Below, piece by piece: positions 14,120-51,278 of a stretch of DNA of 55,929 bases. The DNA is taken from the NCBI GenBank assembly GCA_023954745.1, contig JAGSHC010000010.1, positions 1-55,929 on the forward strand. Direction: 5' to 3'. The notes below the pieces were generated by a model that did not search any database, was not told where the DNA came from, and saw nothing but the letters and a program-made list of their open reading frames with translations. Position numbers and translations under genes: made by a program. Each line of letters begins with the position of its first letter. Position 1 is the stretch's first letter. The DNA comes from Deltaproteobacteria bacterium (GTDB lineage: Bacteria > Myxococcota_A > UBA796 > UBA9615).

Positions 14120-14316
14120 GGTGGATCGAGCGTACTCGATCAATGGAGAGGTGGGGGCCCGATGGCGTCTGGTGCGGGATTCACGACAAAGCTGCGCGAA
14201 TGCAGTTTCGGCCTGCAAACACACCGCAAAATGCCGCGATTACGCCGCGTAGTGTTCTGTCATCGGAACGCGGCGCCCACGGGAACGGGAGCCGGTTCCA
14301 CAACGGAGACACCACC

Positions 14317-18158: not shown

Positions 18159-18208
18159 GGCACGAAAGGCCAGGCGAGCTTCCCTCGCCTGCGTGCGACA
18201 ATCACCGC

Positions 18209-18781
18209 ATGAGGTTCCTGACCTGCACTCTGCTCGCCCTCCTCGTCACCTCGCTCGTGGGCTGCTCGCCGCGCGGAGGCCGCGGAGGCGGGGGTGGGGC
18301 GGATGACGACGACGACACGTCGGACCTGCCCGAGGACGACTCCCAGGTCAGTATCGAGCTGTTCGGGGCGCTTGCCTTCGACGAAGGCTTCTGTGACCCG
18401 GACACCGACCGACGCTGCGCCGACTATGAGATTGCGCTGCATCTCGACCACGACGGCATCGACCCCCTGGCCTACCTCGACTTCATCGCCATCCGCTCGG
18501 GCGCGATGGAGTTCACGAACACGCTCGACTGCGCCGCGAGCCCCTGGCGCGTCGACCCCGAAGGCGGCTCGGAGAACACCGAGTTGTTGATTCGCTACGA
18601 CGGCGAGGGCGGGCAGCCCACCATGTATCACCGCTGCGGAAACGAGCTCGTCTCGCGCACCAACTCCGCCGTGGGCGACGCTCCTATTACCGGGATGATC
18701 GAGGTGGAGGTCCACATCGCAGGCGACGAGTTCCTGCATGTGGCCACTGCGTCGCGGCCGCTGGAGCCGGCGCTTCCCTGA
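18209..18781 (+). CDS. lipoprotein with Gly-rich/Asp-rich linker, unknown function
   Basis: A 190-residue lipoprotein. The signal peptide ends S-L-V-G-C (Cys19); a Gly/Arg stretch and five Asp follow. The mature domain has four Cys after the linker (F-C-D-P, R-C-A-D, D-C-A-A, R-C-G-N), suggesting two disulfides, and looks beta-rich. No family is recognised. The ATG at 18209 gives a complete lipoprotein signal. It lies 50 bases downstream of the DUF1554 lipoprotein on the same strand and could be co-transcribed with it. Confidence 0.78.
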   Translation: MRFLTCTLLALLVTSLVGCSPRGGRGGGGGADDDDDTSDLPEDDSQVSIELFGALAFDEGFCDPDTDRRCADYEIALHLDHDGIDPLAYLDFIAIRSGAMEFTNTLDCAASPWRVDPEGGSENTELLIRYDGEGGQPTMYHRCGNELVSRTNSAVGDAPITGMIEVEVHIAGDEFLHVATASRPLEPALP

Positions 18782-26435: not shown

Positions 26436-27761
26436 CTAGAGGGACGCCAGCAGCAACCCGGGGTTCTCCAGAAGCTCCTTGAGACGCGACGTGAACCGGG
26501 CGGCGTTGGCGCCATCCACGACGCGATGGTCGAAGCTTGGAGAGAGGTGCGTCATGTGGCGCACCACGACCTCGCCGTCTCGCACGACGGGACGCTCGAT
26601 GATCTTGTTCACCCCCAGAATCGCGACCTCGGGGTAGTTGATGATCGGCGTGGCGAAGAGGCCGCCGATGTTCCCGATGGACGTGATGGTGAAGGTGCCG
26701 TCGGTGAGGTCGGCGCGCGTCGCCTTGCCCGCGCGCACGCGCCCGGTGACATCGCGAATCTCCTGGGCGAGCTCCACGATGGACTTGTTGGGCACATCGC
26801 GGATGACGGAGACGTAGAGCCCCTGCGGGGTGTCGGTGGCCAGGCCGCAGTTGAAGTAGTGCTTGTAGACGATCTCCTCGGTGGTGGCGTCGTACAGGGC
26901 GTTCACCTCCGGGAAGTCGTCGAAGGCGAGGAAACAGGCCTTCATGATGAAGGGGAGGTAGCTGACCTTGTCTTCGCCACGGGCGACGAGGCTGGCGTTG
27001 ACGCGCTTGCGCATCAGCACGAGCTCGGTCATGTCCACCTCGTCCACGTAGGAGAAGTGGGGGATGGACATCGACGACCGAGTCATCGCCTCGGAGATCT
27101 TGCGACGCAAGCCGCGCACCTTCACCCGATGCTCCTCGCCGCTGCCTGGAGGCACGGGAGTGTGGGTGAAGGGCATCCCGGTGCCGCCGCGGGCGCCGGC
27201 CGTGGGGGCGCTGCGCCCTTCGGAGAACGCGATGACGTCGGACTTCGTGATGCGGCCGGCCGGGCCGGTTCCGGTCACCGCGGACAGGTCGATGTCGAAC
27301 TCGCGTGCCACGCGACGCGTCGCCGGGGTGGCGAGCACCTTGCCGCCCTTGGCTCGGGCCGCGGGGAGGCTGTAGCTGGCTGCTCCGGCGCCGTTCACCT
27401 TGGCGGCGGGCTTGGGAGCAGGGGCTGCGGGAGCCGCGGGGGCCGGAGCCGCCGCGACGGGTGCAGCCGCAGGGGCGGGGGTGCTGGCAGCTGCCGGGGC
27501 GGGAACTGCTGCGGCTGAATCACCGCCGACGTCGAGCACCACGAGCACGGCGCCCACCTCGACCACGTCGCCTTCGCCGCCGTTGAGGGCGGTGACCTTG
27601 CCGGCCTTGGGGCTCGGGATCTCGACGGTCGCCTTGTCGGTCATGACCTCGACGAGGGGCTGGTCTTCGGCGACGTCGTCTCCAAGGGAGACCTTCCAGG
27701 AGACGATCTCCCCTTCGACGACGCCTTCTCCGATGTCGGGCAACTTGAACTCGAATGCCAT
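26436..27761 (-). CDS. 2-oxoacid dehydrogenase E2 (dihydrolipoamide acyltransferase)
   Basis: A 441-residue E2 core protein. Residues 1-78 form one lipoyl domain with the lipoylated Lys43 in T-D-K-A-T. An Ala/Pro-rich swinging linker spans about 82-125. The E3/E1-binding domain is at about 133-170 (R-R-V-A-R-E). The acyltransferase domain ends with the active-site D-H-R-V-V-D-G near residue 414. It moves the acyl group from E1 to CoA. Sequence alone does not separate pyruvate from branched-chain specificity; the E1alpha/E1beta pair favours a branched-chain-like complex. Confidence 0.9.
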   Translation of the reverse strand: MAFEFKLPDIGEGVVEGEIVSWKVSLGDDVAEDQPLVEVMTDKATVEIPSPKAGKVTALNGGEGDVVEVGAVLVVLDVGGDSAAAVPAPAAASTPAPAAAPVAAAPAPAAPAAPAPKPAAKVNGAGAASYSLPAARAKGGKVLATPATRRVAREFDIDLSAVTGTGPAGRITKSDVIAFSEGRSAPTAGARGGTGMPFTHTPVPPGSGEEHRVKVRGLRRKISEAMTRSSMSIPHFSYVDEVDMTELVLMRKRVNASLVARGEDKVSYLPFIMKACFLAFDDFPEVNALYDATTEEIVYKHYFNCGLATDTPQGLYVSVIRDVPNKSIVELAQEIRDVTGRVRAGKATRADLTDGTFTITSIGNIGGLFATPIINYPEVAILGVNKIIERPVVRDGEVVVRHMTHLSPSFDHRVVDGANAARFTSRLKELLENPGLLLASL

Positions 27762-27801: not shown

Positions 27802-28773
27802 CTAGAAGTCGACCGTGGTCTCGCACGCCTCGAAGATCTTGAGGGCGTCGGGCAGGTACTGCTGCTCGAGCGTGTACGGGAACGGCGTGTCGTAGCCGGT
27901 CACCCGGAGGATGGGGGCCTCCAGGTGCATCAGGGCCTTCTCGGCGATGAGGGCGGCGAGCTCGGCGCCGTACCCACACGTGCGCGCGGCCTCGTGCACG
28001 ATCACGACGCGGCCGGTCTTGCGCACCGAGGCGAGGATGGTCTCCTCGTCCAAGGGCACCAGGCTGCGGACGTCGATGATCTCGGCGCTGATGTCGTTCT
28101 CGGCCAGCAGGTCCGCTGCCTCTCGTGCCTCGTGCAGCACCGCCCCGTAGGTGATGATGCTGACGTGCTCGCCCTCACGGTCCACGGCCGCGGCGAAGGG
28201 AAGCCGGTAAGGCTCCTCGGGGACCTCGGCGCGGGCCGCGCGGTAGATGCGCTTCGGCTCGAGGAAGATGACGGGGTCGGGGTCGTCGATGGCCGTCAGG
28301 AGCAAGCCCTTGGCGGTGTACGGGTCCGACGGCACCACGACCTTGAGGCCCGCGGTGTGGGCGAAGTACGCCTCAGGGCTCTGGGAGTGGTAGTGCCCAC
28401 CGCGGATGCCGCCACCGAAGGGCGTGCGTACCGTGACGCCACAGGGGTACTGGCCCCCGCTGCGGTACCGGAACTTCGCCATCTCGTTCACGATCTGGTC
28501 GAACGCGGGGTAGATGAAGTCGCTGAACTGAATCTCGGGCACCGGCTTGAGGCCGTAGATCGCCATGCCGATGGCGGTGCCGATGATCCCTGCTTCGCTG
28601 AGCGGGGTGTCGAAGACGCGGTTCTCGCCGTGCTTGGCCTGCAGACCGTCCGTGGCGCGGAAGACGCCTCCGAAGCGGCCGACGTCCTCTCCGAAGACGA
28701 AGACGTCTTCGTCTGCGGCGAGGGCGCCGTCGAGGGCGGAGTTGACCGCCTGGATGATGTTCATCACGGGCAT
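27802..28773 (-). CDS. 2-oxoacid dehydrogenase E1 beta subunit
   Basis: A 323-residue transketolase-like beta subunit. Conserved segments are intact: F-G-E-D-V-G near 27-32, the D-T-P-L-S-E-A loop whose Glu activates the thiamine ring, and G-G-H-Y-H-S-Q-S-P-E around residue 126-135. It normally forms the ThDP site with E1alpha. The start at 28773 follows the E1alpha stop by 12 bases with GGGGGTGA upstream. The beta subunit looks fully functional, which contrasts with the altered alpha subunit. Confidence 0.92.
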   Translation of the reverse strand: MPVMNIIQAVNSALDGALAADEDVFVFGEDVGRFGGVFRATDGLQAKHGENRVFDTPLSEAGIIGTAIGMAIYGLKPVPEIQFSDFIYPAFDQIVNEMAKFRYRSGGQYPCGVTVRTPFGGGIRGGHYHSQSPEAYFAHTAGLKVVVPSDPYTAKGLLLTAIDDPDPVIFLEPKRIYRAARAEVPEEPYRLPFAAAVDREGEHVSIITYGAVLHEAREAADLLAENDISAEIIDVRSLVPLDEETILASVRKTGRVVIVHEAARTCGYGAELAALIAEKALMHLEAPILRVTGYDTPFPYTLEQQYLPDALKIFEACETTVDF

Positions 28774-28785
28774 CGAATCACCCCC

Positions 28786-29811
28786 TCAGTCGATCACCCC
28801 GCCGGCGAACCGGCGGCGATGGGTTTCGAGGCCAGCGCGCTGCTCGCTCAACTGGCTCGTGGGAGAGGCGAAGACATCGTCGAACATGGACGCCGTCTCG
28901 GGCGGCCCTTCGGCGAGGAGGTCGTCGATGTGGCCTCGGATCTCAGCTTCGAAGTTGGACTCGATTGTGCGTCGCAGTCCCTCAGCGTCCTCGCCGCGGG
29001 CAGTGAGGTAGCCCTCGAGTCGGGCGACGGGGTCGGCGGTGCCGTCGGGGCCGCCGGTGATGCCCTCGATGAGGGTGGGGCCGTGACCCTGGCGGGCCTT
29101 CGCGATGGCGTCGGACACGGCGGCGTACACCGCGAAGACGTCGCTGCCATCGACGCGCACGGCGCGGATGCCGTAGCCCTCGCCGCGGTCGGCGAACACT
29201 CCGGGACCGAGACGGGCCTCGTCGGCGGCGGGGTCGCCGCTGCTGGCGTAGTAGAAGACGGCGGGGACCTTGTAGACGCCGGCGAAGTTCAGGCCGACGT
29301 GGCAGTCGCCAGAGGCGGCGGCTGCGGGGCCGAACCACACGAAGGAGCAGTCCTGGGTGCCCTTGACCTTCATGCCCTGGGCGGTGCCCGAGGCATGGAT
29401 GATCTGCGTGCCGACGGGGGACGACACGGAGACGAAGTTCACGGCGCGGGCCGTGAACTCGGTGGGGTGGGCGTGCCCGGAGTGGGCGGAGGACGAGGCG
29501 CCGAGCAGCTGGGCGAGCCAGCCGCGCAGGTCGAAGCCGCGGTAGAGGGCGGCGGCACCTTGTCGGACGTCGGCGAACAGCCAGTCGGTCTGGCGCAGGG
29601 CGATGAGGGCGCCGTAGATGTGGGCCTCGTGGCCCTGGGCGGGCGCGAAGACGCTGACGAGGCCACGACGCTGAAGGTCACCCATGACCCGGTCGAGCAC
29701 GCGGGAACGAACCATCGCCCGGTGCAGGCTGGTGACACGCTCGATGCTCCAGGCTGGGTCGGCGTCCTCGCGGGGGGCGCCCGAGGGGCTCAGGATCGAC
29801 AGGGGATTCAT
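28786..29811 (-). CDS. E1 alpha-like subunit lacking canonical ThDP-site residues
   Basis: A 341-residue homologue of branched-chain/pyruvate dehydrogenase E1alpha. The fold is recognisable throughout (Q-G-H-E-A-H near 59-64, G-L-N-F-A-G-V-Y-K at 173-181). However, the ThDP/Mg motif G-D-G ... N-N is G-P-A at 161-163 and S-S at 190-191. The active-site loop that normally carries G-P-H-T-T-A-D-D reads G-P-D-G-T-A-D-P, with His replaced, and the Y-R-E-H-G region is V-R-Q-G-A. Metal and cofactor binding in the usual way is not expected. It is the first gene of the operon, with a sigma70-like promoter upstream. It may be an inactive structural partner of E1beta or may use another cofactor geometry. 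Confidence 0.88.
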   Translation of the reverse strand: MNPLSILSPSGAPREDADPAWSIERVTSLHRAMVRSRVLDRVMGDLQRRGLVSVFAPAQGHEAHIYGALIALRQTDWLFADVRQGAAALYRGFDLRGWLAQLLGASSSAHSGHAHPTEFTARAVNFVSVSSPVGTQIIHASGTAQGMKVKGTQDCSFVWFGPAAAASGDCHVGLNFAGVYKVPAVFYYASSGDPAADEARLGPGVFADRGEGYGIRAVRVDGSDVFAVYAAVSDAIAKARQGHGPTLIEGITGGPDGTADPVARLEGYLTARGEDAEGLRRTIESNFEAEIRGHIDDLLAEGPPETASMFDDVFASPTSQLSEQRAGLETHRRRFAGGVID

Positions 29812-30024: not shown

Positions 30025-31002
30025 CTACCCCAGGACCTTCAACCGCCTCCGCGCCGCGTCGCTGTGCCCTGGAGGGACGACCGTCGCCGGGGCTGGCGTC
30101 CACACCTCGCCTCGCGCCTTGGCGTCGAGCAAGTTGCTGATGAAGTACTCGCCTGCCTTGTACGAGCTGCGGACCAGCGGGCCGCTCGCCACGTACAGGA
30201 AGCCCAGCTCACGTCCCACTCGCTCGTACTCGGCGAACTGGTCGGGGTGCACGAACTCCTCCAGCGCGATGTGCTTCTTGCTGGGCCGCAGGTACTGCCC
30301 GATGGTCAGGAAGTCCACGCCCACCGAGCGCAGGTCGCGCATCGTCTCGATGACGTCCTCCTCCGGCTCGCCCAGCCCCACCATGATCGAGCTCTTGCTG
30401 AAGGCTTCGGGGTCGACCTCCTTGATGGTCTGCAGGACCGAGAGGCTCTGGTCGTAGCCACAGCGCCCGTCACGCACCTTCTTCGTCAGCGCGCGGGTCA
30501 CCTCGATGTTGTGCGCCAACACCTCCGCCCCCGAGTTCACGCAGATGGCCACGAGGTCCTTGTCCCCCCGGAAGTCCGGGAAGAGGATCTCCACCTTCGT
30601 CTTCGGCGAGTGCGCCTTCACCGCCTTCACGCAGTCCGCGAAGTGCTGAGCGCCCTGCCCCTCGAGGTCGTCTCGGTCCACGGAGGTGATGACGATGTAG
30701 TCGAGGTCCATGGCCGCGATGGTGCGACCGAGCTTCGCTGGCTCCTCAGGGTCGAGCGGGAGCCCGTTCCGGTTGGTGTTGACGTTGCAGAACCGGCAGC
30801 CGCGGGTGCAGATGCTGCCCATCACCATGAACGTGGCGGTCCCGCCGCCCCAGCACTCTCCGATGTTGGGGCAGGACGCCTCCTCGCACACCGTCGACAG
30901 CTCCAGCGTCTTGCGCTGCTGCTTGATCCACGCGTAGCGCTCCCCCGACGGGGCACGCACCTTCAGCCAGGCGGGCTTGCGAGCTTTGATGTCCAGCGGC
31001 AT
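30025..31002 (-). CDS. lipA: lipoyl synthase
   Basis: A 325-residue radical-SAM enzyme that inserts two sulfurs into protein-bound octanoyl groups to make lipoyl cofactors. The auxiliary cluster motif C39-x4-C44-x5-C50 and the radical-SAM motif C65-x3-C69-x2-C72 (C-T-R-G-C-R-F-C) are both present, with the conserved C-terminal R-S-S-Y. The length is typical. It lies directly upstream of the lipoyl-dependent E1/E2 genes on the same strand, which fits supply of the E2 cofactor. The ATG at 31002 is used; the frame continues upstream without coding character. Confidence 0.96.
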   Translation of the reverse strand: MPLDIKARKPAWLKVRAPSGERYAWIKQQRKTLELSTVCEEASCPNIGECWGGGTATFMVMGSICTRGCRFCNVNTNRNGLPLDPEEPAKLGRTIAAMDLDYIVITSVDRDDLEGQGAQHFADCVKAVKAHSPKTKVEILFPDFRGDKDLVAICVNSGAEVLAHNIEVTRALTKKVRDGRCGYDQSLSVLQTIKEVDPEAFSKSSIMVGLGEPEEDVIETMRDLRSVGVDFLTIGQYLRPSKKHIALEEFVHPDQFAEYERVGRELGFLYVASGPLVRSSYKAGEYFISNLLDAKARGEVWTPAPATVVPPGHSDAARRRLKVLG

Positions 31003-31096: not shown

Positions 31097-32122
31097 CTAG
31101 GGCAGCGCCTCCAGCCCCTCAGACGTGCACTCGTCCGACGCCCGCAAGGGGTTGCATCGCGAGGGAGTCCCGTCCGGCATGTCGAGCCAGTAGCTCTGCC
31201 CATCGACCGGCGCGGGGAAGTCGTCGCACAGCATGTTGGCGCCGCTCTGCAGAGCCGTGCTGCGCTTCGCCGCGTTCTCCTCATCGGTGTCCCCGGCGCT
31301 GCCGATGTTGCTCGCCACGAGGATGCGCCGGTTCACCGTGTCGGGGATCTCGATGCTGCCGGCGTTGTTGATCTTCGCCACCGCGGCGATGGGCACGTCG
31401 AAGTCGACCTGGTCCACCTGCACGAAGATCGGCTTGCCCGCCAGCGACTGGTAGCTGTCGCTGTAGTTCTCGGCGTGCTCGCCGCCCTCGAGGAGCAGGA
31501 ACATCGTCTGGCCCCGCACGGTGTCGACGAGGGGCCAGCCCTCCTCCGTCAGGGCTTCCCGAAGCGACGCGTGCTCTCCACGTACATCGTCCGGCTCCAG
31601 CAGCCGGTCGGGCGGGAACACCGACCGGATGACGTCGTCCAGGGCGTCGTAGTCGGTGATCTTGTTGACGTCGATGTCGTCCTTGAGCTCCATCCACACG
31701 AAGATCGGGTGGTGCTGGAGGTTGTCGTCCGACCAGTCCTTGATGGTCTGGAGGCAGTCCACGAACAGCTCGCAGGTCGTCTCGGCATCGATGATGGGGA
31801 TGTGGAACACCCGCAGCTGATCGTCGTCGCCCAGGTGCAGGTCCAACTCGAAGCCCCGCACGCCCTGTTCGCCCAGCTGCACATCCAGCGGGGCATGGGT
31901 GTAGCGATGGCTGTCGTCGAAGGGCAGGTTCGGCTCGACGTGGTAGCTGTTGTGCGTGCAGCGAGCCTGGATCTCGTCGAGGCGCAGCGGGCCCGGAGGG
32001 GCGCTGTCGTCGTCGTCGACCACGTCGTCGTCGTCGACCACGTCGTCGTCGTTGGCGTCGTCGTCGTCGGACACGACGCAGCCCGGGAGCAGCAGGAGGA
32101 GGAGGAGCGGAAACGCGCGCAT
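31097..32122 (-). CDS. PI-PLC-like phosphodiesterase lipoprotein with Asp-repeat linker
   Basis: A 341-residue lipoprotein. The signal peptide ends L-P-G-C (Cys15). The mature N-terminus has D-D-D-D-A-N-D-D-D and V-V-D-D-D-D repeats to about residue 39. The body matches the bacterial Ca2+-dependent phosphoinositide phospholipase C-like fold: T-H-N-S-Y at 56-60 with His57, and G-V-R-G-F-E-L-D-L-H at 87-96 with acidic metal ligands. It probably cleaves a phosphodiester head group at the cell surface or outside it. The ATG at 32122 is fixed by the signal peptide; the same frame runs open to 34195 antisense to the next gene, which is not coding. Confidence 0.87.
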   Translation of the reverse strand: MRAFPLLLLLLLPGCVVSDDDDANDDDVVDDDDVVDDDDSAPPGPLRLDEIQARCTHNSYHVEPNLPFDDSHRYTHAPLDVQLGEQGVRGFELDLHLGDDDQLRVFHIPIIDAETTCELFVDCLQTIKDWSDDNLQHHPIFVWMELKDDIDVNKITDYDALDDVIRSVFPPDRLLEPDDVRGEHASLREALTEEGWPLVDTVRGQTMFLLLEGGEHAENYSDSYQSLAGKPIFVQVDQVDFDVPIAAVAKINNAGSIEIPDTVNRRILVASNIGSAGDTDEENAAKRSTALQSGANMLCDDFPAPVDGQSYWLDMPDGTPSRCNPLRASDECTSEGLEALP

Positions 32123-32146
32123 CGCGTTCCATCCTATGCTCTCCGC

Positions 32147-34264
32147 GTGACGGAGGAGACGAGCACCAGGCGCCTCCCTTGGATACTGGCCGCCCTGGTG
32201 CTGGTGTTCTGCGTCCCCATGTTCGCGAACCCCGACGGCTTCCTCAGCGGGGACGCCTACCGCGACAACGACTGGCTCACCGACCGCTTCTTCGACCTCG
32301 CCGCGCGCCAGACCCTCCTGGAGGAAGGGGCGTTCCCCATGAGGAGCCACCTCATCGGAGGCGGCTACCCCACCCTGGGCCAGCCGTTCGACGGCTCCTG
32401 GGCTCCGACCCTGCTCGCCGTCCTCCTCCTCGGGCCGGTGTGGGGCGTGAAGCTCAACCTGATCCTGCTCCTGGGGCTCGGCGCCTGGGGCGTCTGGCGT
32501 CTCAGTCGCCACTGGCTGCACCTCGACCCCCGGGCCGCCGCCTTCGCCACCGCCGCGTTCATCGTGTCGGGCTGGCTCCCGTCGATGATGCTGGTGGGCT
32601 TCTACCCGCAGGTCTTCTATCTCCTCACCCCTGCCGTACTCGCCCTCCTGCTCGCCCCGAGGAGCGCCTGGCGGGACCGCATCCTCGCCGGGGCGCTGCT
32701 GTTCCTCGTCCTCCAGCAAGGCGGCAACGCCTTCGTCGCCATCTTGGGCTTCCTCTTCGTCACCGTGTGGGTCGAGGCCGCCGAGCGTGAAGGCACCTGG
32801 CGGGGCGGCCTCCCCCTCCTCCCCCTGCTCGGCACCACCGCCGGCCTCGCCTTCGCCCATCGCTACGGCCAGCCCGCCTTCCTCGCTCTGCCCCCCATCG
32901 CCATCGCGCTGTGGTGGCGACTCTCCCCCACATCGCGGCAATTCGTCGGCGAGCTGAAGCCCCTCTTCCTCAGCTTCGGTGTGGTGCTCCTGGTCGCCGT
33001 CACGCTCGGCATCGGCAAGGTCACCGCCCTGGCCCCTCTCCTCGCCGACGCCCGCTACGAGCACGCCGACAACATCCCCCCGAGCGCCTGGCCCGCTCCC
33101 CCCGCAGACCGAGGCGAAGGCGCCGTCCTCGACCCCGAGCGCCACGACGAGCACTTCTACGCCAGCGCTGGAGAGCTGCTCGCCGGGCTCGTGGGTCGAG
33201 CGCCAGCCGAAGGGGAGTACCTCCCACCGCCCGACCCCCCGCGGGGACGCGAGCTGATGGACGAGGTGGACCGCCGCTCCGCGACCCGGGAGTACGGCTA
33301 CCTCGGCCTCACTCCAGGCCTTCTCCTGCTCGCGCTGCTCGGCACGATGATGGCCGCTGGTCCGCGGGAGCCCTTCACGACCGCTCCTCGACGCACCGCG
33401 ATGCTGTTGTTCATTGGCTCCACTGCGGTGTGCATGGGCCCGCATCTCCTGCCGGACATGCACTTCCTGCTCGCCGGAGGCCTCCCCCGTTTCCGCTCCC
33501 TCTCCCAGCCCATCAAGTACTACAACTTCTTCATCCTGCTGCCCGCCACTCTGCTCGCCGGCGTGGCCGCCCACGAGGGGTTGCGCCTCGCAGGAGACCG
33601 GTCTCGCTTCGTGGTCGGAGGACTCGCGCTGCTCATCGCCTGGCCTCTGATGCAGAACGCGCCCATCTGGGCCGACCGCTTCGCCGAGCCCATGCCGGAG
33701 TGGGACTGCGATGGATGCGCGCAGGTCAAGCAGATCGGCCACGCCTCCTGGGTCGACGAAGACGCGGAGACCATCCAGGAGTGGTCCCATCGCCATCGCC
33801 TGCGCGAGCGCCGCCGGCCCACCGAAGCGAGGGAGTACGACAACGCTCTGCACGGGGTCGGCACCATCGATTGGTACGGCACCCTCGAGCTGCCCGAGCC
33901 CACAGTGCCGAGCCACTGGGTGACCTCCCTCGGCGTCGTGCTCCCCAACGAGGACTACCCGGGCGCCGAAGCCTGGTTCGAAGGGGAGGGACGCGTCACC
34001 CGCGTCGACATCGGGGCCAGCTTCATCGACGCGGACGTGGCAGGACCTGGCGGACGGCTCGTCATCAACCAGGCCCATCTGCCCGGATTCGTCTCGAGCG
34101 TCGGCACCGTTGCCCGTGATGTGGGCGGCCTCCTCGCCATCGACCTCCCAGCCGGCGAGCACGAGGTCCGGGTCCGCTACCGCCCATGGACGCAACTCCT
34201 CGGCCTCCTCGCGTCCCTGTGTGCCGCCGTGGGGTGGGGCGTCGTCTGGTGGCGTCGCCCATGA
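32147..34264 (+). CDS. YfhO-like polytopic membrane protein
   Basis: A 705-residue integral membrane protein with about 12 hydrophobic segments. The C-terminus has a soluble beta region followed by L-P-A-G-E-H-E-V-R-V-R-Y-R-P-W and a last membrane span, the hallmark ending of YfhO-type GT-C-like proteins involved in glycosylation of envelope polymers. The early loop with D-N-D-W and the M-R-S-H-L-I-G-G-G-Y-P segment resembles the donor/acceptor region of these proteins. The start is GTG at 32147, only 24 bases from the divergent lipoprotein start. It ends in ATGA, overlapping the next gene. Confidence 0.82.
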   Translation: MTEETSTRRLPWILAALVLVFCVPMFANPDGFLSGDAYRDNDWLTDRFFDLAARQTLLEEGAFPMRSHLIGGGYPTLGQPFDGSWAPTLLAVLLLGPVWGVKLNLILLLGLGAWGVWRLSRHWLHLDPRAAAFATAAFIVSGWLPSMMLVGFYPQVFYLLTPAVLALLLAPRSAWRDRILAGALLFLVLQQGGNAFVAILGFLFVTVWVEAAEREGTWRGGLPLLPLLGTTAGLAFAHRYGQPAFLALPPIAIALWWRLSPTSRQFVGELKPLFLSFGVVLLVAVTLGIGKVTALAPLLADARYEHADNIPPSAWPAPPADRGEGAVLDPERHDEHFYASAGELLAGLVGRAPAEGEYLPPPDPPRGRELMDEVDRRSATREYGYLGLTPGLLLLALLGTMMAAGPREPFTTAPRRTAMLLFIGSTAVCMGPHLLPDMHFLLAGGLPRFRSLSQPIKYYNFFILLPATLLAGVAAHEGLRLAGDRSRFVVGGLALLIAWPLMQNAPIWADRFAEPMPEWDCDGCAQVKQIGHASWVDEDAETIQEWSHRHRLRERRRPTEAREYDNALHGVGTIDWYGTLELPEPTVPSHWVTSLGVVLPNEDYPGAEAWFEGEGRVTRVDIGASFIDADVAGPGGRLVINQAHLPGFVSSVGTVARDVGGLLAIDLPAGEHEVRVRYRPWTQLLGLLASLCAAVGWGVVWWRRP

Positions 34265-35766
34265 GCCTCGCGCGCCGCATCGCCCTCCACGCCGCTCTCG
34301 CGCTCCTGACCCTCGTGGTGTTTGCGCCCCACCACGGTCGCGGCTTGATGCTCTACGACCTGGGCGAGCTGCTCCTCTACACCCAGGCCTTCCTGGACGG
34401 GAAGACGCCCGGCCTCGACTTCATCGTCAACGGGTACGGACCCGGTCGCTACCTGCTGATCGCGGCGCTGAGCGTCCTCACCAGAGCCGCGCCCATGGCG
34501 GTGGCCTTCGGCGTGTTCATCGCTTTGCGGGTGGTCATCTCCTCCCTGGCGCTGGAGGTGGGCCTGCGTTTCGTTCCCGACGGGGTCGCCGGGAGACTGG
34601 GCTGGCTTCTCTTCGCTCCCCTCTCGCTCCTGCTCCTTCCGGGCCCGCTGCACAAGGGCTTCTTCCTCGCCGGGAGTCTGGCGCTGCTCCTTGGGGCGAC
34701 GTCGCTGGCGGAGCGGCCCACGAGCCGGCGCGCTCTCCGGTACGGAGCGCTCATCGCTGTGTGCGCGGTGTTCCGCGTCGACCTGGGCTTGTACGGAGCG
34801 CTTGCGCTTGCCCTCGTCGCCTGGCGCACCCGTTCAGCGAGGACGTTCGCGATGGGGTCCGCTGCGCCACTTCTGGGTTGGCTGCTGCTCGGTGTCTCGC
34901 TCCTGATCAGCGGGACCGGAGTGCTCTCAGCCGTCGCCGGGCAGGTGTGGTTCGACGTCGCCGTGAACCACACCGTGGTCTTTCCTACGTTCCCGAGCCC
35001 TCGGGAGCTGATCACCCAGCCCTCCCTCGACCGCACCCTGCTTTGGCTTCCACTGCTGGTCTACGGCGCGCTCTTCGGGACGCTCGTCCGCTCTCTGCAC
35101 CGCGACCAGGACGGGGTCGGCTGGCTGCTGCTCCTGTTGGGCGTGCTCACCTGCAATCAGGTGCGGATGAAGCCCGAGTTTGGACACCTCCTCCAGGCGG
35201 GTCCGCTGATGTGGCTGGCCCTGGCGTTCATGGTGTCGCGGGTCTGGGAGCGCTCACCGGGGCGGAGACCGCTCGCGCTCGTCATCCTGCTGGTGCCGCT
35301 CCTCCTCGTCGTGAACACCCTGAGCAGCCACCGGGGCTCGGTGTACACGGGCTCCTTCACGATCCTCGATGACCGCGACGAGGTCGTGGTGACGGCTGCG
35401 GGACCCCTCCGCCTCGCGGACTACGAGGAGGAACGTCTGGTTCCCGTGCTTCGCACCATCGACCGCGCTCCTCCCGGCTCGCTCTGGGTGCCGTCGAACC
35501 AGCCGCTCCTGCACGCGCTCTCCGGCCGGGAGAACACCACGGGCTATGTCGGAGCTCTGTACGTGGCGAACTCTCCGGAGCGGGAGGCGGACCTCATCCG
35601 GCGGTTGGAGGCAGCTCCTCCGCCCGTCGCTGTCTTCGTGGACGACTCCATGGAGGGGCCGGAGCGCAGCCTGCGGATGGGCGCGCCGACGGTCTTCGAC
35701 TACCTGCAGGAGCACTACACCGCGGTGGGGACCTTCGGGGAGTTCGTGGTGATGCAGCGGCGCTGA
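34261..35766 (+). CDS. GT-C-like polytopic membrane protein
   Basis: A 501-residue membrane protein with about 10 hydrophobic segments in the first 370 residues and a soluble C-terminal domain of about 130 residues. The first loop (L-Y-D-L-G-E-L-L-L-Y-T-Q) and G-Y-G-P-G-R-Y-L resemble lipid-linked-sugar glycosyltransferases of the GT-C class, but no diagnostic motif is complete. It overlaps the YfhO-like gene by four bases (ATGA), so the two are co-translated and probably act in one glycosylation step. Confidence 0.75.
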   Translation: MSLARRIALHAALALLTLVVFAPHHGRGLMLYDLGELLLYTQAFLDGKTPGLDFIVNGYGPGRYLLIAALSVLTRAAPMAVAFGVFIALRVVISSLALEVGLRFVPDGVAGRLGWLLFAPLSLLLLPGPLHKGFFLAGSLALLLGATSLAERPTSRRALRYGALIAVCAVFRVDLGLYGALALALVAWRTRSARTFAMGSAAPLLGWLLLGVSLLISGTGVLSAVAGQVWFDVAVNHTVVFPTFPSPRELITQPSLDRTLLWLPLLVYGALFGTLVRSLHRDQDGVGWLLLLLGVLTCNQVRMKPEFGHLLQAGPLMWLALAFMVSRVWERSPGRRPLALVILLVPLLLVVNTLSSHRGSVYTGSFTILDDRDEVVVTAAGPLRLADYEEERLVPVLRTIDRAPPGSLWVPSNQPLLHALSGRENTTGYVGALYVANSPEREADLIRRLEAAPPPVAVFVDDSMEGPERSLRMGAPTVFDYLQEHYTAVGTFGEFVVMQRR

Positions 35767-35808: not shown

Positions 35809-36522
35809 TCAGGGAGCGATCGAGTGGCGCCCGTCCTCGACGTGGTGCAGTCGTTCGCCGTGCTCCGGCGCCTCGAAGCGCCCCTCCCGCAGGAAGGTCG
35901 CCGTCTGCTCGATGACGCGGGGTCGCGCCATGATGAACGTGTGGCCGAAAGGCACGACGAGGAAGTCGCGTGCGTGGCTCCAGCGCGCCTCCTCCACGAA
36001 GACCTTGCCGTCATCTCGCTTGCCGGGCTGCACACCCGCGATGACGCCAAACTCCGCGTCCGGGTCGCCGGCGGTGGCGCACTGCCCGCGCTCCCCTGGC
36101 AGGAGCTTGTGGAGTGGGTCGAAGCCTCCCCAGGGGAAGCGGAGCACGTTGTCGTACCAATGGGCTGCGATGCGGCTTCCCTGATTGGGAGGAGCCAGCA
36201 TCACCACGCGGTTGGGGCCGGTGATCTCGTGCCGATTCAGCATCGACCGGACGACGATGCCCCCCATGGAGTGGGTCACGAAGTGCGCGTCGGGCACCGT
36301 TCCGGTGGCGAGACGCACCTCGTCGCGGGCCCGCTCGACCCGTCCCCACAGCTGGTCCGCCAGGGTGGGGATGTCGCGGTGGAGGTTCAGCTGAGTCACC
36401 ACCCGCACATCGAAGCCCACGCGACGCAGGGCCACCGCCATCGGGATCATCGAGGCTCCGGTGCGCATGAAACCGTGAACCAGAAAGACGAGCCTACTCA
36501 ACGGGTTCCTCGGCAGCTTCAC
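35809..36522 (-). CDS. alpha/beta hydrolase (lipase/esterase-like)
   Basis: A 237-residue alpha/beta hydrolase. V-F-L-V-H-G-F near residues 12-18 forms the oxyanion region and T-H-S-M-G-G around 83-88 carries the nucleophile Ser. The catalytic His is probably in the V-P-F-G-H-T-F segment. The fold resembles triacylglycerol lipases or PGAP1-like hydrolases; the substrate is unknown. The GTG at 36522 overlaps the upstream gene by 29 bases; a TTG at 36501 with GAGGA upstream is an equally good start and gives a more typical N-terminus. Confidence 0.82.
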   Translation of the reverse strand: MKLPRNPLSRLVFLVHGFMRTGASMIPMAVALRRVGFDVRVVTQLNLHRDIPTLADQLWGRVERARDEVRLATGTVPDAHFVTHSMGGIVVRSMLNRHEITGPNRVVMLAPPNQGSRIAAHWYDNVLRFPWGGFDPLHKLLPGERGQCATAGDPDAEFGVIAGVQPGKRDDGKVFVEEARWSHARDFLVVPFGHTFIMARPRVIEQTATFLREGRFEAPEHGERLHHVEDGRHSIAP

Positions 36523-38050
36523 CCTCCAGCATCGCCTGGTCGAGCTCGTCCAGGGTGAGATACTCGAGCAGGTTGTAGTAGCGATTGGGACGGTCCGCTC
36601 GCTTGCCGACGCGGACTCGCGCGACGCTGGCGAATCCGGCCATGAAGGCGCCCGCGCCGATCCCGTGGGCGGCGAAGGGGCTCGCGACCAGGAAGCCTTC
36701 CTCGCCGGTGTTCCCCCAGGCAGCGGACAGGGCGACCGTGGCTACGCCCGAGACAATGGCCGCCCCGATGCTGGCGCCCATCACGGCCGTCCACTGGTTC
36801 TTCAGCCGGTAGTTGTGTTCGCGCCATTCCTCGAGCCGCAGGTTCACGTACTCGTTTCCCATGCCTGCGGCGAAGCTGGACCAGCTCAAGCGGTAGCGCT
36901 TCCAGCGCCTGTCTCCCAGCCGGCCCATACGCACCGCGTAGACGGTGTCGAGCTCTGGTCCGAGGAGGTCGAGCTGCTTGCCGCGACGGTCGACGTACAC
37001 GATGGCTGAGTCCATGGGACGCTCGGCGGTCGGGCGTCGGACCTTGCTGGAGTCGCCAACCACCACCCCGTTGATCGCTCCGCTCGGTCGCCGAGAGCTC
37101 GACGTGGGGGTCCCGCTCGGTCGTCCGCTGGTGGTTCCGGGGACGTCGCAGGTGGGAGCGCCACCGGCCCAGAAGCCCTGCACCAGGCCGCTGTCGGTTG
37201 CACTGAAGCGGCGGGCTCCATCCAGAGTGCGAATCACGACTTCGTTGGCTCGGCCCCCGGGCAGCGTGCGCCCGCCGACCCAAGTGCCGTCTTCGGCGCT
37301 GAGCACCGCCCATCCATCCCCGCGCTGCGCCCCGATGAGCGGGACGTCGACCACCCGTACGTCGACGATCTCCTCGAGGGGCACGAGCTGCTCGGCGCCC
37401 TGAGCCCCTTGAACGCACAGGCCGGAAGAGGTGTCGCCAAGGGCGCCGGAGAGTCGGGTCCCGTCCGCGGTCTCGATCCAGCCGAAGCGAAGGCCGGGGT
37501 GACTCACACCGTCGAGGTCGGGGCCCTCTCCGAGGCCGACGTCGTTCTGGGCGCGGGCCAGCTCGAGGAGGACCATCTCGCTGAGGGCCTCGCGCATCTC
37601 CGACCAGGAGCCGGGCTCGTCGACCTCGAGGGTGACCGACGTCTCCGAGTCCAGGGGGCCGGAGATTGTGGTCAGGACCTCTGCGCTGCAGAACGACCAC
37701 TCCGCTGTGTCGTCGCACCAGAAGCTGAGGACATCGGCCTGCACGTGGTGCACCTCGGAGCCCTCGGGCCCGCGGTACAGCGGGATCCCCAGCTCGTGGC
37801 CAGCATCCATGAAGGCGGAGCTCACTTCGCGCTGGAGCGAGAAGCCGTCCCCAGGACCTGAGGCGACGGGGTCACCGCGGTCGTCGTAGAGGTATCCGAG
37901 GAGCTCGTCGGCGCGCTGGTCCGAGGGGCGTCGGTCCTTGACGTGCAAGGTCGCTGGGGCTCCCAGTCGGTCGACGGCGCTCGGCTCCGCGCCCCACGCT
38001 GGAAGGGCGACTGCGAGGCAGGCAACGAGAACGATGGGGGTGGGCCGCAC
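36494..38050 (-). CDS. exported protein with YajG-like N-terminus and C-terminal membrane segments
   Basis: A 518-residue protein with a Sec signal peptide cut near A-W-G (residue 20). Residues 34-60 (L-H-V-K-D-R-R ... L-L-G-Y) resemble the start of YajG-like envelope lipoproteins. The middle (170-330) contains beta-rich repeats and a Ser/Pro/Arg-rich linker. Two hydrophobic segments near 425-485 suggest membrane insertion. No enzymatic motif is seen. It ends inside the start region of the hydrolase, so the pair forms an operon and may act together on the envelope. Confidence 0.72.
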   Translation of the reverse strand: MRPTPIVLVACLAVALPAWGAEPSAVDRLGAPATLHVKDRRPSDQRADELLGYLYDDRGDPVASGPGDGFSLQREVSSAFMDAGHELGIPLYRGPEGSEVHHVQADVLSFWCDDTAEWSFCSAEVLTTISGPLDSETSVTLEVDEPGSWSEMREALSEMVLLELARAQNDVGLGEGPDLDGVSHPGLRFGWIETADGTRLSGALGDTSSGLCVQGAQGAEQLVPLEEIVDVRVVDVPLIGAQRGDGWAVLSAEDGTWVGGRTLPGGRANEVVIRTLDGARRFSATDSGLVQGFWAGGAPTCDVPGTTSGRPSGTPTSSSRRPSGAINGVVVGDSSKVRRPTAERPMDSAIVYVDRRGKQLDLLGPELDTVYAVRMGRLGDRRWKRYRLSWSSFAAGMGNEYVNLRLEEWREHNYRLKNQWTAVMGASIGAAIVSGVATVALSAAWGNTGEEGFLVASPFAAHGIGAGAFMAGFASVARVRVGKRADRPNRYYNLLEYLTLDELDQAMLEGEAAEEPVE

Positions 38051-38081
38051 GCGGGAACCCTACACCCGGGAGCCAAATACA

Positions 38082-38149
38082 GGACCCGGGAGACAAGCCG
38101 GACGCGCTGGGGAGGAGGAGGACGCGCATCCGACCCGAATCCCGGGTCC
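38082..38149. repeat. 10-bp inverted repeat in a divergent promoter region
   Basis: GGACCCGGGA at 38082-38091 is matched by its exact reverse complement TCCCGGGTCC at 38140-38149, with 48 bases between. Both arms are flanked on their outer side by AT-rich ATACA-type sequence. The element lies in the 236-base gap between the divergent genes starting at 38050 and 38287, a place where a regulator or looping site would be expected. Confidence 0.5.
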
Positions 38150-38286
38150 TTTCCTTGTATAGAGCCGAAAACGGCCAGTACCAGGGGCTTGGGCGGGTTC
38201 AACACTGCCCGACCTTCTCGGTGGCCAGGGCCGGTCACCGGGAACTACGCGCGCGCCAGAGCACTCGGCTGTGGTAGTTCCATCGG

Positions 38287-39537
38287 ATGGCCCGTGTCGA
38301 CGCCGACTACCTGCGCTTCCTCGCCCGATGGGATCGGGATGCCGACGCATTGCGCCGCGCCCTCAGTGAGCGCGCGGGTCACGAGGTGCACTTCGCCGAT
38401 CGTCCGCCCCCCAGTGAGGCTGGCGCCATCTTCGGGCTCTTCTCACGCGACCCGCTGGCGGTGGTGACCGAGCGCCCGGATGGGTCCCGGGAGCTTCCCT
38501 ACAACCCGTACCAAGCCTGGCGCGCCATCGTCGAGGAGCGCTACCTGGGCGAGCCAAAGGCGCCGCTCCACGCACGGATCCCGTTGCCGTACCACGTAGT
38601 GCCTGGTGCTCTGAGGATGGCGCTCTATCCGCTGGTGGCGGGGCGCGCGTCCCATCAACCCGAGGACTCGCCTCCCGATCCTGCGTGGCCCATCGAGTCG
38701 CGCCTGGACGGATTCCGGGCCGAGCTCTACGCGGGCCTCGACTCCGCGAAGGCCGTGGAGAACGGTGGAGGGTGGCCCGGAGGGAAGCGCTTCCCGTTGT
38801 TGGTCACCCACGACGTGGACACCCGGGAGGGCATGGCAAAGGCGGGGCCCGTGCTCGATGAGATGGTGGCCATGGGGCTCAAGCCGTGCTTCTTCCTCGT
38901 GGGGCGCGGCTACAAGTGGGACAAGGGCTTCATCGAGGCGGTGCGCCAGGCCGGCGGTGAGATCGGGCTGCACGGCGATCTGCACGACAACCGCATCGCG
39001 TTCACCTCGGCTGACAAGGCTGCCGAGCGCCTCGACACCTGCAAGGAGATGATGGAGGAGTACGGCATCCGTGGGTTCCGGTCTCCCTCGCTGCTGGTCA
39101 GTGACGCCCTCTACGACGCAGTGGGCCCCCGGTTTGCGTGGGACTCCTCGGTGCCCGACACCGACACGCACACCCTGCTCGGCGCGCGGCGCGGCTGCGG
39201 GACTGTGTTCCCCTTCCGGCGGCGCGGATGTCTGGTGCTCCCGATCACGATGCCGGCGGACGACCGTCTCCTGCTCCTTGGCTACAAGGGGCTCGGCCTG
39301 GTCGATGTCCTGCGGCGCAAAGCGAAGCATGTGCGGGAGCTGGGCGGGCTCTGCCACTTCTTGACGCACCCGGAGCCCCACTTGTTCGGCAAGCGCGTTC
39401 TGCGGGACCTCTTCCGGGCCGTGTTCTCGGAGATTCTGGACAGCGGAGAGGCCTGGGTGGCGACCCCGTCCATGGTCGCCGAGTACTGGGAGTCGCTCAC
39501 CGCGGCGGGGGCGAGCAACGGATCGGCCGCCACGTGA
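38287..39537 (+). CDS. polysaccharide deacetylase-like (NodB-homology) protein
   Basis: A 416-residue protein with a NodB-type domain in its C-terminal two thirds. T-H-D-V-D-T at 174-179 gives the catalytic Asp pair (176 and 178); G-L-H-G-D-L-H at 227-233 gives metal His229 and His233; G-F-R-S-P follows as motif 3. The first 160 residues are a separate conserved region. No signal peptide is present, so a cytosolic sugar or lipid-linked substrate is likely. Its stop overlaps the start of the SDR epimerase (GTGA), pointing to a shared carbohydrate pathway. Confidence 0.85.
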   Translation: MARVDADYLRFLARWDRDADALRRALSERAGHEVHFADRPPPSEAGAIFGLFSRDPLAVVTERPDGSRELPYNPYQAWRAIVEERYLGEPKAPLHARIPLPYHVVPGALRMALYPLVAGRASHQPEDSPPDPAWPIESRLDGFRAELYAGLDSAKAVENGGGWPGGKRFPLLVTHDVDTREGMAKAGPVLDEMVAMGLKPCFFLVGRGYKWDKGFIEAVRQAGGEIGLHGDLHDNRIAFTSADKAAERLDTCKEMMEEYGIRGFRSPSLLVSDALYDAVGPRFAWDSSVPDTDTHTLLGARRGCGTVFPFRRRGCLVLPITMPADDRLLLLGYKGLGLVDVLRRKAKHVRELGGLCHFLTHPEPHLFGKRVLRDLFRAVFSEILDSGEAWVATPSMVAEYWESLTAAGASNGSAAT

Positions 39538-40466
39538 AGCCCATGCCCGGGGATCCACGCAGCCGACCGGCGCGGGGTACGGGCGAGATCCTGGTCACCG
39601 GAGCCACGGGCCTCCTGGGACGCTCCGTGTGTCGCGCCCTCGGGGCCCGGAGGGTGCATCACCGCGCTCTCGTTCGACCGACCTCGGACCGCGGAGCCAT
39701 CGAGGGCTCTGGTGCCTACACGTGGATGATCGAGGGGGACCTGCTCCGCCCCGAGACCCTCTCCGGGCCTCTCGAAGGTGTGCGAATCATTCTCCATCTG
39801 GCGGGGCTGGTGCGCTCCAGCGACGTGGTTGCGTGCGCTGCTCTGCACGTGGGTGGCACCCAGGCTCTCCTCGACGCGGCCAGTCCGGGCACGCGCCTCG
39901 TGGCCATGTCGTCGGACACGGTGTCGCGGTCGCATCGCGGGGCCTACGCCCAGAGCAAGGCAGACATGGAGGCGCTGCTCGCGGGGCGAGCCGCGGTGGT
40001 CCTGCGGCCTCCGATGATGCTTGGACCAGGCTCTCCGCACCTGGCCTCCCTCGAGAAGGCCGCGCGCTTGCCGGTCGTGCCGGTGCCTGACGGTGTGGCC
40101 CGTCGCGCACCGGTTCATGCCGATGATGTCGCCGGGGCCGTCCTCGCGGCCATGGAGCTACCCGACGAGGCCTGGGATGGCAGGGCCTTCGATCTGCCGG
40201 GGGCAGACGACCTTCCCTTCGGCGAGGTCGTGCAGGAGCTGGCGAGAGCCCGGGGCTGGCGAGTGCCGCGGGTCATGGAGATGCCGGCGCCGCTCTCCTC
40301 GGGCGCGCTCCGAATGATCGAGCGTCTCGGCCGCAAGGAGCGGGCTGACAAGCTCCGGCAGCGCGTGCGAGGGATGCAGGAGACCGTGCACGCCGACGGA
40401 GCTGCGGCGAGGAGCGAACTGGACTGGAGCCCGCGACCGCTGAGGCAGGTGCTGGTGGACTCGTAG
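39534..40466 (+). CDS. NAD-dependent epimerase/dehydratase (extended SDR)
   Basis: A 310-residue extended short-chain dehydrogenase. The NAD-binding G-A-T-G-L-L-G is at residues 23-29 and the active-site Tyr138-x3-Lys142 in Y-A-Q-S-K. Members act on nucleotide sugars or sterol-like substrates. The start is GTG at 39534, four bases inside the preceding deacetylase gene (GTGA), so it is translationally coupled. It probably supplies or modifies the sugar that the deacetylase acts on; this is inferred from linkage. Confidence 0.87.
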   Translation: MKPMPGDPRSRPARGTGEILVTGATGLLGRSVCRALGARRVHHRALVRPTSDRGAIEGSGAYTWMIEGDLLRPETLSGPLEGVRIILHLAGLVRSSDVVACAALHVGGTQALLDAASPGTRLVAMSSDTVSRSHRGAYAQSKADMEALLAGRAAVVLRPPMMLGPGSPHLASLEKAARLPVVPVPDGVARRAPVHADDVAGAVLAAMELPDEAWDGRAFDLPGADDLPFGEVVQELARARGWRVPRVMEMPAPLSSGALRMIERLGRKERADKLRQRVRGMQETVHADGAAARSELDWSPRPLRQVLVDS

Positions 40467-40474
40467 CGTGCCGG

Positions 40475-40488
40475 CGGGCGCGAGCCCG
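40475..40488. terminator. GNRA-loop hairpin between convergent genes (candidate terminator)
   Basis: CGGGC (40475-40479) pairs with GCCCG (40484-40488) around a GCGA loop, a GNRA tetraloop. It sits nine bases after the SDR stop codon (40464-40466) and ahead of the convergent Rieske gene. No T-tract is present. Confidence 0.45.
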
Positions 40489-40517
40489 TGGTCGCGAGTT
40501 CGGACCCGCCCCGGCGA

Positions 40518-48596: not shown

Positions 48597-48673
48597 GGCC
48601 GCAAGCGTCCCGCTCCCGCCGCCCCCCGTCAAGGGTGGTCGCCGGGACAAACTGAGAACGGCTCGCTTCTTGT

Positions 48674-49537: not shown

Positions 49538-49822
49538 ATGCCCGCACTGCTCACGCCCGATGCTGTCCGTTCCGCCCTCGAGTCCCTGCCTCGATGGTCC
49601 AAGGACGGGGACTCCATCAAGAAGACCTACGTCTTCGAGGACTTTGTGCAGGCATTCGGCTGGATGAGCTCCGTGGCCCTTGTCGCGGAGCGCATGAATC
49701 ACCACCCCGAGTGGTTCAACGTCTACAAGACCGTCAAGGTCACCCTGAGCACCCACGACGCTGGTGGAATCACGCAGCTGGACATGGACCTCGCCGCGGC
49801 GATGGATCGTCTGGCCGGCTGA
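49538..49822 (+). CDS. phhB: 4a-hydroxytetrahydrobiopterin dehydratase
   Basis: A 94-residue pterin-4a-carbinolamine dehydratase. The signature E-R-M-N-H-H-P-E-W is at about residues 51-59, with the catalytic His pair, and the later T-H-D-A-G-G-I-T and M-D segments match the family. It recycles the pterin of aromatic amino acid hydroxylases. A perfect GGAGG lies five bases before the ATG. No hydroxylase is in the window. Confidence 0.94.
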
Positions 49823-49871
49823 CCCTATCCTCCGCGCCCCGCGTGTACCCCACGCGCTCGGAGGCTCCTCG

Positions 49872-51278
49872 ATGTCCGACAGCAGCTACGACGTTCTCGT
49901 GATCGGGGCCGGCCCCGGCGGCTACCCCGCAGCCATTCGTGCCTCCCAGTTGGGGCTCAAGACCCTCATCGTCGAGAAGAGCATGTGGGGCGGCACGTGC
50001 CTCAACATCGGCTGCATCCCCAGCAAGGCGCTCATCGAGGCCGGCAAGACCTTCGAGAAGATCGACAAGGCCGCGGCCATGGGGATCTCCGTCTCCGAGA
50101 AGTCCCTCGACATGGGCAAGCTCCAGGAGTGGAAGGGCGGCATCGTCAACAAGATGACGAGCGGAGTGCGTGGACTGTGCAAGGGCAACGGCGCGGAGCT
50201 GGCCAACGGCACCGCGTGCTTCACGTCCGCGACCACGGCCGAGGTGACCCCCGCGGACGGCTCTGCGGCGTACACCGTGACCTTCAAGCAGGCGGTCATC
50301 GCCACCGGCTCGGTCCCCATCGAGCTGCCCATGTTCCCCTTCGACGAGGAGACCATTCTCTCCAGCACCGGCGTCCTGGACCTCCCCGAGGTCCCTGGCC
50401 ACGTCGTCGTGGTGGGCGGGGGGTACATCGGTCTCGAGTGCGGGCAGATGCTGCGCAAGCTCGGCGCGGAGGTGACGGTCATCGAGCTCGCCGACCAGAT
50501 CCTGCCGGGCTTCGATCCCGAGATCGTGCGCTTCGTCTCTCGCAAGATGAAGAAGAGCGGGATTCGCACCCTGCTCAACGCCAAGGCCGGAGGCGCGAAG
50601 AAGGACGGACAGGGGCTCATCGTCTCCGTCGACGGGAAGAACGGGCCCGAGGAGATCGCCTGCGACAAGCTCGTGGTGACGGTCGGTCGCAAGCCCTACA
50701 CGAACGGCCTGGGGCTCGAGGCGGCAGGCCTCAGCACCGACGAGCGCGGCTTCCTCAGCGTCGACAACCAGCTCCGTACCGCGGTGCCCAACATCTTCGC
50801 CGTAGGGGACGTCACCGGAGACCCGATGCTCGCCCACCGCGCCACGATGCAGGGGGAGATCGTGGGCGAGGTGCTGGCCGGCAAGGACGTGGCGTGTGAC
50901 TACAAGACCGTGCCGGCGGTGGTGTTCACCGACCCCGAGATCGCGACGGCGGGGCTGATGGAGAACGAGGCCAAGGAAGCTGGCTTCGACATCAAGGTGG
51001 GCAAGTTCCCCTGGGGAGCGAACGGCCGCGCGCTGACGCTGCAGAGCACCGACGGCTTCGTGAAGATCATCGCCGATGCGACGGACAACCAGGTGTTGGG
51101 CGTCGCCATCTGCGGGCCGCACGCCAGCGACCTCATCAGCGAAGCCGCCCTGGCGGTGGAGATGGACGCGTTCGTCGAAGACCTCGGCCTCACCATCCAC
51201 CCGCACCCGACCCTGGGTGAGGCGGTGATGGAGGCAGCCAACAAGGTGCTGGGTCACGCGATCCACGTGATGAACTAG
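49872..51278 (+). CDS. lpdA: dihydrolipoamide dehydrogenase (E3)
   Basis: A 468-residue flavoprotein. FAD-binding G-A-G-P-G-G at 12-17, redox-active disulfide Cys43/Cys48 in G-G-T-C-L-N-I-G-C, NAD-binding G-G-G-Y-I-G, and the C-terminal catalytic His in H-P-H-P-T-L are all present. It re-oxidises lipoyl groups of 2-oxoacid dehydrogenases. It is probably the E3 for the E1/E2 genes at 26-30 kb, although it is 20 kb away and not in that operon. The ATG at 49872 lies 49 bases after the pterin dehydratase stop. Confidence 0.95.
   Translation: MSDSSYDVLVIGAGPGGYPAAIRASQLGLKTLIVEKSMWGGTCLNIGCIPSKALIEAGKTFEKIDKAAAMGISVSEKSLDMGKLQEWKGGIVNKMTSGVRGLCKGNGAELANGTACFTSATTAEVTPADGSAAYTVTFKQAVIATGSVPIELPMFPFDEETILSSTGVLDLPEVPGHVVVVGGGYIGLECGQMLRKLGAEVTVIELADQILPGFDPEIVRFVSRKMKKSGIRTLLNAKAGGAKKDGQGLIVSVDGKNGPEEIACDKLVVTVGRKPYTNGLGLEAAGLSTDERGFLSVDNQLRTAVPNIFAVGDVTGDPMLAHRATMQGEIVGEVLAGKDVACDYKTVPAVVFTDPEIATAGLMENEAKEAGFDIKVGKFPWGANGRALTLQSTDGFVKIIADATDNQVLGVAICGPHASDLISEAALAVEMDAFVEDLGLTIHPHPTLGEAVMEAANKVLGHAIHVMN

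Follow-up and report, generated by a model that had tools for sequence, protein, structure and literature searches.

The window considered here, the whole stretch of DNA analysed, comprises 55,929 nucleotides (contig JAGSHC010000010.1 of a deltaproteobacterial assembly, genome G000 in the following) and carries on its minus strand the genes of a 2-oxoacid dehydrogenase complex. They begin with lipA for lipoyl synthase (30025..31002), the first gene of a conserved lipA-alpha1-beta-E2 order. It is followed by a gene of the E1alpha type (28786..29811, with its ATG at 29811), by a canonical E1beta (27802..28773) that is the only close beta of its type in the genome, and by an E2 acyltransferase (26436..27761) with one lipoyl domain, an E3/E1-binding domain and an HxxxDG catalytic domain. 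An E3-like dihydrolipoyl dehydrogenase, matching E. coli Lpd at 43%, lies outside the operon on the plus strand (49764..51278). The E1alpha-type gene encodes an E1alpha-fold subunit of 341 residues that lacks the Mg-ThDP site; we refer to it as psi-alpha1.

Several further features were observed in the window and its genome. A block that includes a small Rieske-like protein and one resembling alpha/beta-hydrolases occupies 35809-40847; the same block adjoins lipA-psi-alpha1 in two related genomes (L042 of G001 and L043 of G003), while in the window other genes intervene at 31097-35766. On the minus strand, 11408-14224 encodes a NuoG-like/formate dehydrogenase alpha subunit with one in-frame TGA (13040-13042) at NNCHQCAAT-U-HAPTVAGL; this is very probably a selenocysteine-containing formate dehydrogenase, which standard ORF calling breaks up into two genes. 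Lipoprotein-like N-termini followed by Asp-rich linkers (GCVVSDDDDANDDDVVDDDD...) occur at about 31097-32000 (minus strand), 18143-18781 (plus) and 47943-48686 (minus), as well as in L040 and L046, and represent a common surface-protein trait of the lineage. Finally, a single large protein encoded in G001 (L046, 8786-15481), built of DCDDxDP...CDGxDNDC repeats, has more than 100 DNA matches in G000; by eye these are MopE-like metal-binding repeats, and the family is large and expanded in G000.

The relationship of psi-alpha1 to E1alpha is supported at several levels. The PF00676 profile matches it with 145 bits (cut-off 22, E=2.5e-42), its AlphaFold2 model reaches pLDDT 85.8 and pTM 0.84, and the best PDB matches to this model are all E1alpha, with human BCKD and Geobacillus E1p alpha at the top of the Foldseek results; the sequence matches E1alpha chains in the PDB as well. 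The E1beta and E2 genes adjoin it. The reading of the initial annotation that the E1alpha fold is preserved is thus borne out. An error of annotation or frame was considered and ruled out by the third-position GC of 0.89, zero internal stops and full-length homology. Psi-alpha1 falls well under the curated PDH E1alpha equivalog TIGR03181 (211.7, with 411.35 required), and the E1alpha profile alone would mislabel it as an active dehydrogenase subunit.

The neighbouring E1beta contains the motifs DTPLSE and GHYHSQ, the latter with the retained catalytic His, and the catalytic Glu60 of the former confirms the earlier remark that E1beta keeps its catalytic Glu. It retains 119 of 141 conserved positions (84%), including both catalytic residues. 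This conservation, along with a low pN/pS, suggests that a working ThDP enzyme is still under selection. As E1beta, E2 (lipoyl domain and HxxxDG motif) and the neighbouring LipA are all canonical, the proposal that the complex uses a different chemistry is left without support. The alpha subunit resembles human BCKD alpha and the beta subunit that of Thermus 2-oxoacid dehydrogenase; the substrate may be pyruvate or a branched 2-oxo acid.

Loss of the cofactor site in psi-alpha1

Psi-alpha1 departs from canonical E1alphas at four places. Firstly, WFGPAAAASGDCH (residues 159-171, 29299..29337, minus strand as for all of these) replaces GDG...GDxH; the motif reads W-F-G-P162-A-A, with Pro162 at the position of the Mg-ligand Asp/Glu. 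Secondly, YASSGDPAAD (residues 188-197, 29221..29250) stands in place of xNNxxAISxP, so that the NN region becomes A-S-S191-G-D with Ser191 at the Mg-ligand Asn; the inner loop is shorter by two residues, and the Ile-Ser that follows NN is Asp-Pro in window-type proteins (Asp-Glu in G003). Thirdly, the outer loop YRxxxHSSSDDPxxYRxxxxxxxW, about 20-26 residues in alignments with intact relatives, is absent, and EGITGGPDGTADP (residues 249-261, 29029..29067) is the scar of this deleted His/phosphorylation loop; 'PDGTADP' is the stretch remaining around the deletion. Fourthly, GHAHPTE (residues 112-118, 29458..29478) replaces GRQMPxH, and the resulting GHAxxxE, with His for Arg, Ala for Gln and Glu for His, is common to the five window-type proteins. 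Psi-alpha1 still has the SSPxxTQ stretch and, on the diphosphate side, the Arg (R83).

Among the 89 intact alpha1 and alpha2 relatives compared, some of them near-identical, the Asp/Glu, the Asn and the His are each present in 89 of 89, against P, S and a deletion in five of five window-type proteins. The substitutions of GDG by GPA and of NN by SS noticed in the initial annotation stand; its third claim, that an Asp takes the place of the active-site His, does not, since the alignments show the His loop to be deleted. The three positions map to D173a, N202a and H271a of Geobacillus E1p. In that enzyme, coordination of Mg and the diphosphate network falls to D173a and N202a together with Q200a; residues 203-212 of the inner loop touch the diphosphate, and H271a and the outer loop contact the cofactor and the lipoyl group (PMC2663715). 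Only 1 of 14 conserved pocket positions is kept in psi-alpha1, compared with 28 of 45 elsewhere (Fisher p=0.0004), and such clustering of losses in the cofactor motifs is what one would predict for a protein that must keep its fold but no longer requires its site. Judged from these residues, psi-alpha1 would be unable to bind Mg-ThDP and would perform no decarboxylation.

The degenerate form is present in five of six genomes of the family, belonging to three genera, with 49-72% identity and no stops. Identity to the window gene is 72% in G001, 51% in G003, 57% in G004 and 52% in G005 (four family members among 58 relatives); the sixth genome, G002, has two intact E1alphas instead. Among the 379 genomes of the phylum, the motif pattern matched 5, each of them from this family, and a scan of 85k species for further degenerate forms returned only G001, G003 and G005, the remaining matches being canonical. 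The initial annotation had proposed a phylogeny as a check for a conserved clade, and the window form does constitute one, comprising the five family genomes, with support 100/100 and a long stem.

The long stem branch might be taken as a sign of a decaying pseudogene, all the more so as psi-alpha1 evolves faster than its neighbours: between the four psi-carrying genomes compared, pN/pS is 0.43-0.84 for psi-alpha1 and 0.16-0.28 for E1beta, synonymous sites being partly saturated. We regard this explanation as barely credible and have rejected it, for five genomes from three genera share an open frame and identical replacement residues, pN/pS stays below 1 (subject to the same saturation), and start, length and operon position are maintained. 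Having an open, constrained frame from which the catalytic residues are gone, psi-alpha1 appears to be a pseudoenzyme and not a pseudogene. The same intact frames and fixed replacements, next to a conserved E1beta, lend support to two suggestions already made for this gene, namely that its changes go beyond simple drift and that it is a non-catalytic scaffold.

Two E1alphas for one E1beta

Gene content shows that many genomes of Myxococcota and of a second bacterial group encode two paralogous E1alphas, alpha1 and alpha2, per single close E1beta. The gene order is either lipA-alpha1-E1beta-E2-alpha2-E3, or alpha2 (with or without E3) sits at a separate locus. Such alphas occur in 78 of 144 well-assembled Myxococcota, 43 of which carry two. 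Their alpha1 accompanies beta and E2, and in several genomes lipA precedes it; alpha1-beta-E2-alpha2 forms one operon in G002, G313, G108 and G326 (ending with E3 in G002), and a separate alpha2 locus, alone or with E3, is found in G340 (a two-contig genome), G153, G112, G116 and G307. Exactly one close beta (58-100%), located beside alpha1, was detected in 14 of 15 genomes tested, the contig of G004 stopping before beta; the remaining betas of these genomes reach at most 49% and are located in other E1s. In one two-alpha subgroup (L172-L174, L180-L183, L185 and L186), IDN or VDN replaces xNN in alpha2, with the Mg-ligating second Asn unchanged. A literature search gave nothing relevant on two-alpha E1s or E1alpha pseudoenzymes, subscription papers being mostly beyond its reach. 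The arrangement, a family assembled in this analysis and for which we found no name, seems to have been overlooked.

The window operon, lipA-psi-beta-E2, places psi-alpha1 in the alpha1 slot. SSP is typical of alpha1 (alpha2 has SSV or SSC) and is retained in G000 and G001. Gene order and, in part of the family, the SSP motif thus argue for descent of psi-alpha1 from alpha1, and protein trees alone do not decide the matter: in the densely sampled tree, joining psi-alpha1 with the alpha1 of G002 gives the best likelihood found and joining it to the alpha2 of the family is not rejected; recent duplication from the orphan alpha2 was disfavoured in the first tree (AU p=0.016) and is not rejected with denser sampling.

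A second degenerate alpha1 occurs in another bacterial group, in the operon lipA-alpha1-beta-E2-alpha2 of G379 (L062, JANSXC010000004.1), where alpha2 is intact. The same three sites are lost, reading V, A and deleted (DVQ, HA, outer loop gone), and conserved positions are kept in 4 of 14 cases in the pocket and in 36 of 45 elsewhere (p=0.0007). Among regions of G379 relatives, 19 of 20 show lipA-alpha1-beta-E2-alpha2(-E3) with both alphas intact; the twentieth starts at a contig start and reads alpha1-beta-E2-alpha2-E3, again with both intact. The degenerate protein of G379 sits within the alpha1 clade, next to the intact alpha1 of a sister genome, with a branch of 1.07 compared with 0.07. 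To derive it from one origin shared with the window clade lowers the fit by 15 log-likelihood units, although AU p is 0.157. The replacement residues, which differ between G379 and the window family, also point to two losses, and these are probably independent events.

Could the pocket have been rebuilt so that it still binds ThDP or some other phosphate compound as cofactor, with ligands newly supplied by the invariant SGD (Asp193), His113 and Glu118? His113, Glu118, Ser191, Gly192 and Asp193 are indeed invariant in window-type proteins, the diphosphate-side Arg83 and Ser130 are retained, and the inner-loop region is confident in the AlphaFold2 model. Still, both Mg ligands are gone together, the His loop required for the lipoyl step is deleted, and G379 lost the same sites with other residues, the Arg included, and acquired no matching new set. 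We therefore consider such binding highly unlikely.

A proposed one-site E1 and its relation to known systems

Canonical alpha2 is present in G001, G002, G004 and G005; in G001, G004 and G005 it is an orphan without its own beta, found in the same genome as psi-alpha1. We did not find it in the assembly of G003 or in that of G000, which is 100% complete by markers and consists of 481 contigs. A gene for a Gfo/Idh-type oxidoreductase lies near alpha2 in G001 and G005 (66% to each other), and G000 has only a 43% paralogue of it; for the tested neighbours of G001 alpha2, G000 yielded this paralogue and otherwise just a single weak match, away from alpha2. It is possible that an assembly gap explains the absence in G000: the 43% paralogue would fit a missing segment, and real loss is allowed as well. 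Other complete E1 systems do exist in G000: E1a-E1b-E2/E3 on C178, the fused C62/C155, C58, and the 2-oxoglutarate dehydrogenase-like C14. The search for other E1alphas proposed in the initial annotation was productive for complete systems and yielded no alpha2.

On balance, and with modest confidence, we favour the explanation that psi-alpha1 is a pseudoenzyme acting as structural or regulatory partner in a two-alpha, one-beta E1, in which catalysis would be carried out by E1beta with alpha2. The loss in psi-alpha1 would be tolerable because two paralogous E1alphas share one E1beta and canonical alpha2 can supply the missing half-site. As alpha2 is missing from the G000 and G003 assemblies, we infer the pairing of psi-alpha1 with alpha2 in trans.

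The same absence, together with the other complete E1 systems of G000, could instead mean that psi-alpha1 and beta are the sole E1 of the operon, that alpha2 was truly lost in G000 and G003, and that a non-catalytic structural or regulatory protein sits on the E2 core while other dehydrogenases accomplish the oxidation. This is unlikely: E1beta retains its catalytic residues, 84% of conserved positions and a low pN/pS, E2 retains lipoyl and catalytic motifs, and three relatives retain alpha2. Psi-alpha1 might also be a dominant regulator that competes with alpha2 for the common E1beta and sets the amount of active E1, as its co-transcription (by position) with the single beta and the encoding of alpha2 elsewhere would permit. 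We find this quite unlikely, because in G379 psi-alpha1, beta and alpha2 belong to one operon, which a stoichiometric partner fits better than a competitor.

The mechanism we propose for psi-alpha1 as a partner subunit is as follows. In each site, the pyrimidine half would come from beta, and alpha would contribute the diphosphate/Mg half together with a loop to accept lipoyl domains. Psi-alpha1 presumably still folds and docks onto E1beta and alpha2. Gene content suggests that the product is probably a psi-alpha1/alpha2/beta2 heterotetramer with ThDP held only at the alpha2-beta interface; at the alpha1-beta site, psi-alpha1 would allow neither Mg-ThDP binding nor loop closure. Psi-alpha1 would make the tetramer complete, with a possible further role in adjusting assembly, E2 docking or activity.

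E1s of this class are regarded as symmetric alpha2beta2 enzymes with two linked sites, which show half-of-the-sites reactivity and for which a proton-wire model was formulated (PMC2663715). We tentatively suggest, at somewhat less than an even chance, that natural asymmetric psi-alpha1/alpha2/beta2 E1s with one competent site per heterotetramer arose at least twice from the widespread alpha1/alpha2/beta2 E1. If this is true, the asymmetric E1 eliminates the second site on which the alternating-site/proton-wire model relies. Two-alpha E1s with one dead alpha would then be natural one-site E1s and offer a direct test of site-to-site communication.

Among known systems, a comparable deletion is found in transketolase-like 1 (TKTL1), which some claim to be active and whose activity is disputed (PMC6334435); this claim is a point against our reading of psi-alpha1. 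Like psi-alpha1, it is a paralogue within the ThDP superfamily with a deletion and lost histidines at the cofactor site; unlike it, TKTL1 is a mammalian transketolase homologue and no E1 subunit, and was modelled with other ThDP contacts kept (PMC6334435). With BCKD/PDH E1alpha (PF00676; human BCKDHA 1dtw/1v16, Thermus 1um9, Geobacillus E1p 1w85/3dva), psi-alpha1 shares fold, length, the operon with E1beta and E2, the diphosphate-side Arg and Ser, and the SSPxxTQ stretch, but it is without the Mg ligands, the inner-loop Ile-Ser and the His/outer loop, and its GRQMPxH is replaced. The alpha1 subunits of two-alpha E1s (G002, G313, G108, G340 and others) have the same lipA-alpha1-beta-E2 slot, SSP and the single common beta, but they still carry the His loop as well as G[DE]G and NN. 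The degenerate alpha1 of G379 agrees with that of the window in its slot, in the three lost sites and in the deletion of the His loop, and differs in its DVQ and HA residues, in the kept GRQ, in the lost Arg and in having an intact alpha2 within its own operon.
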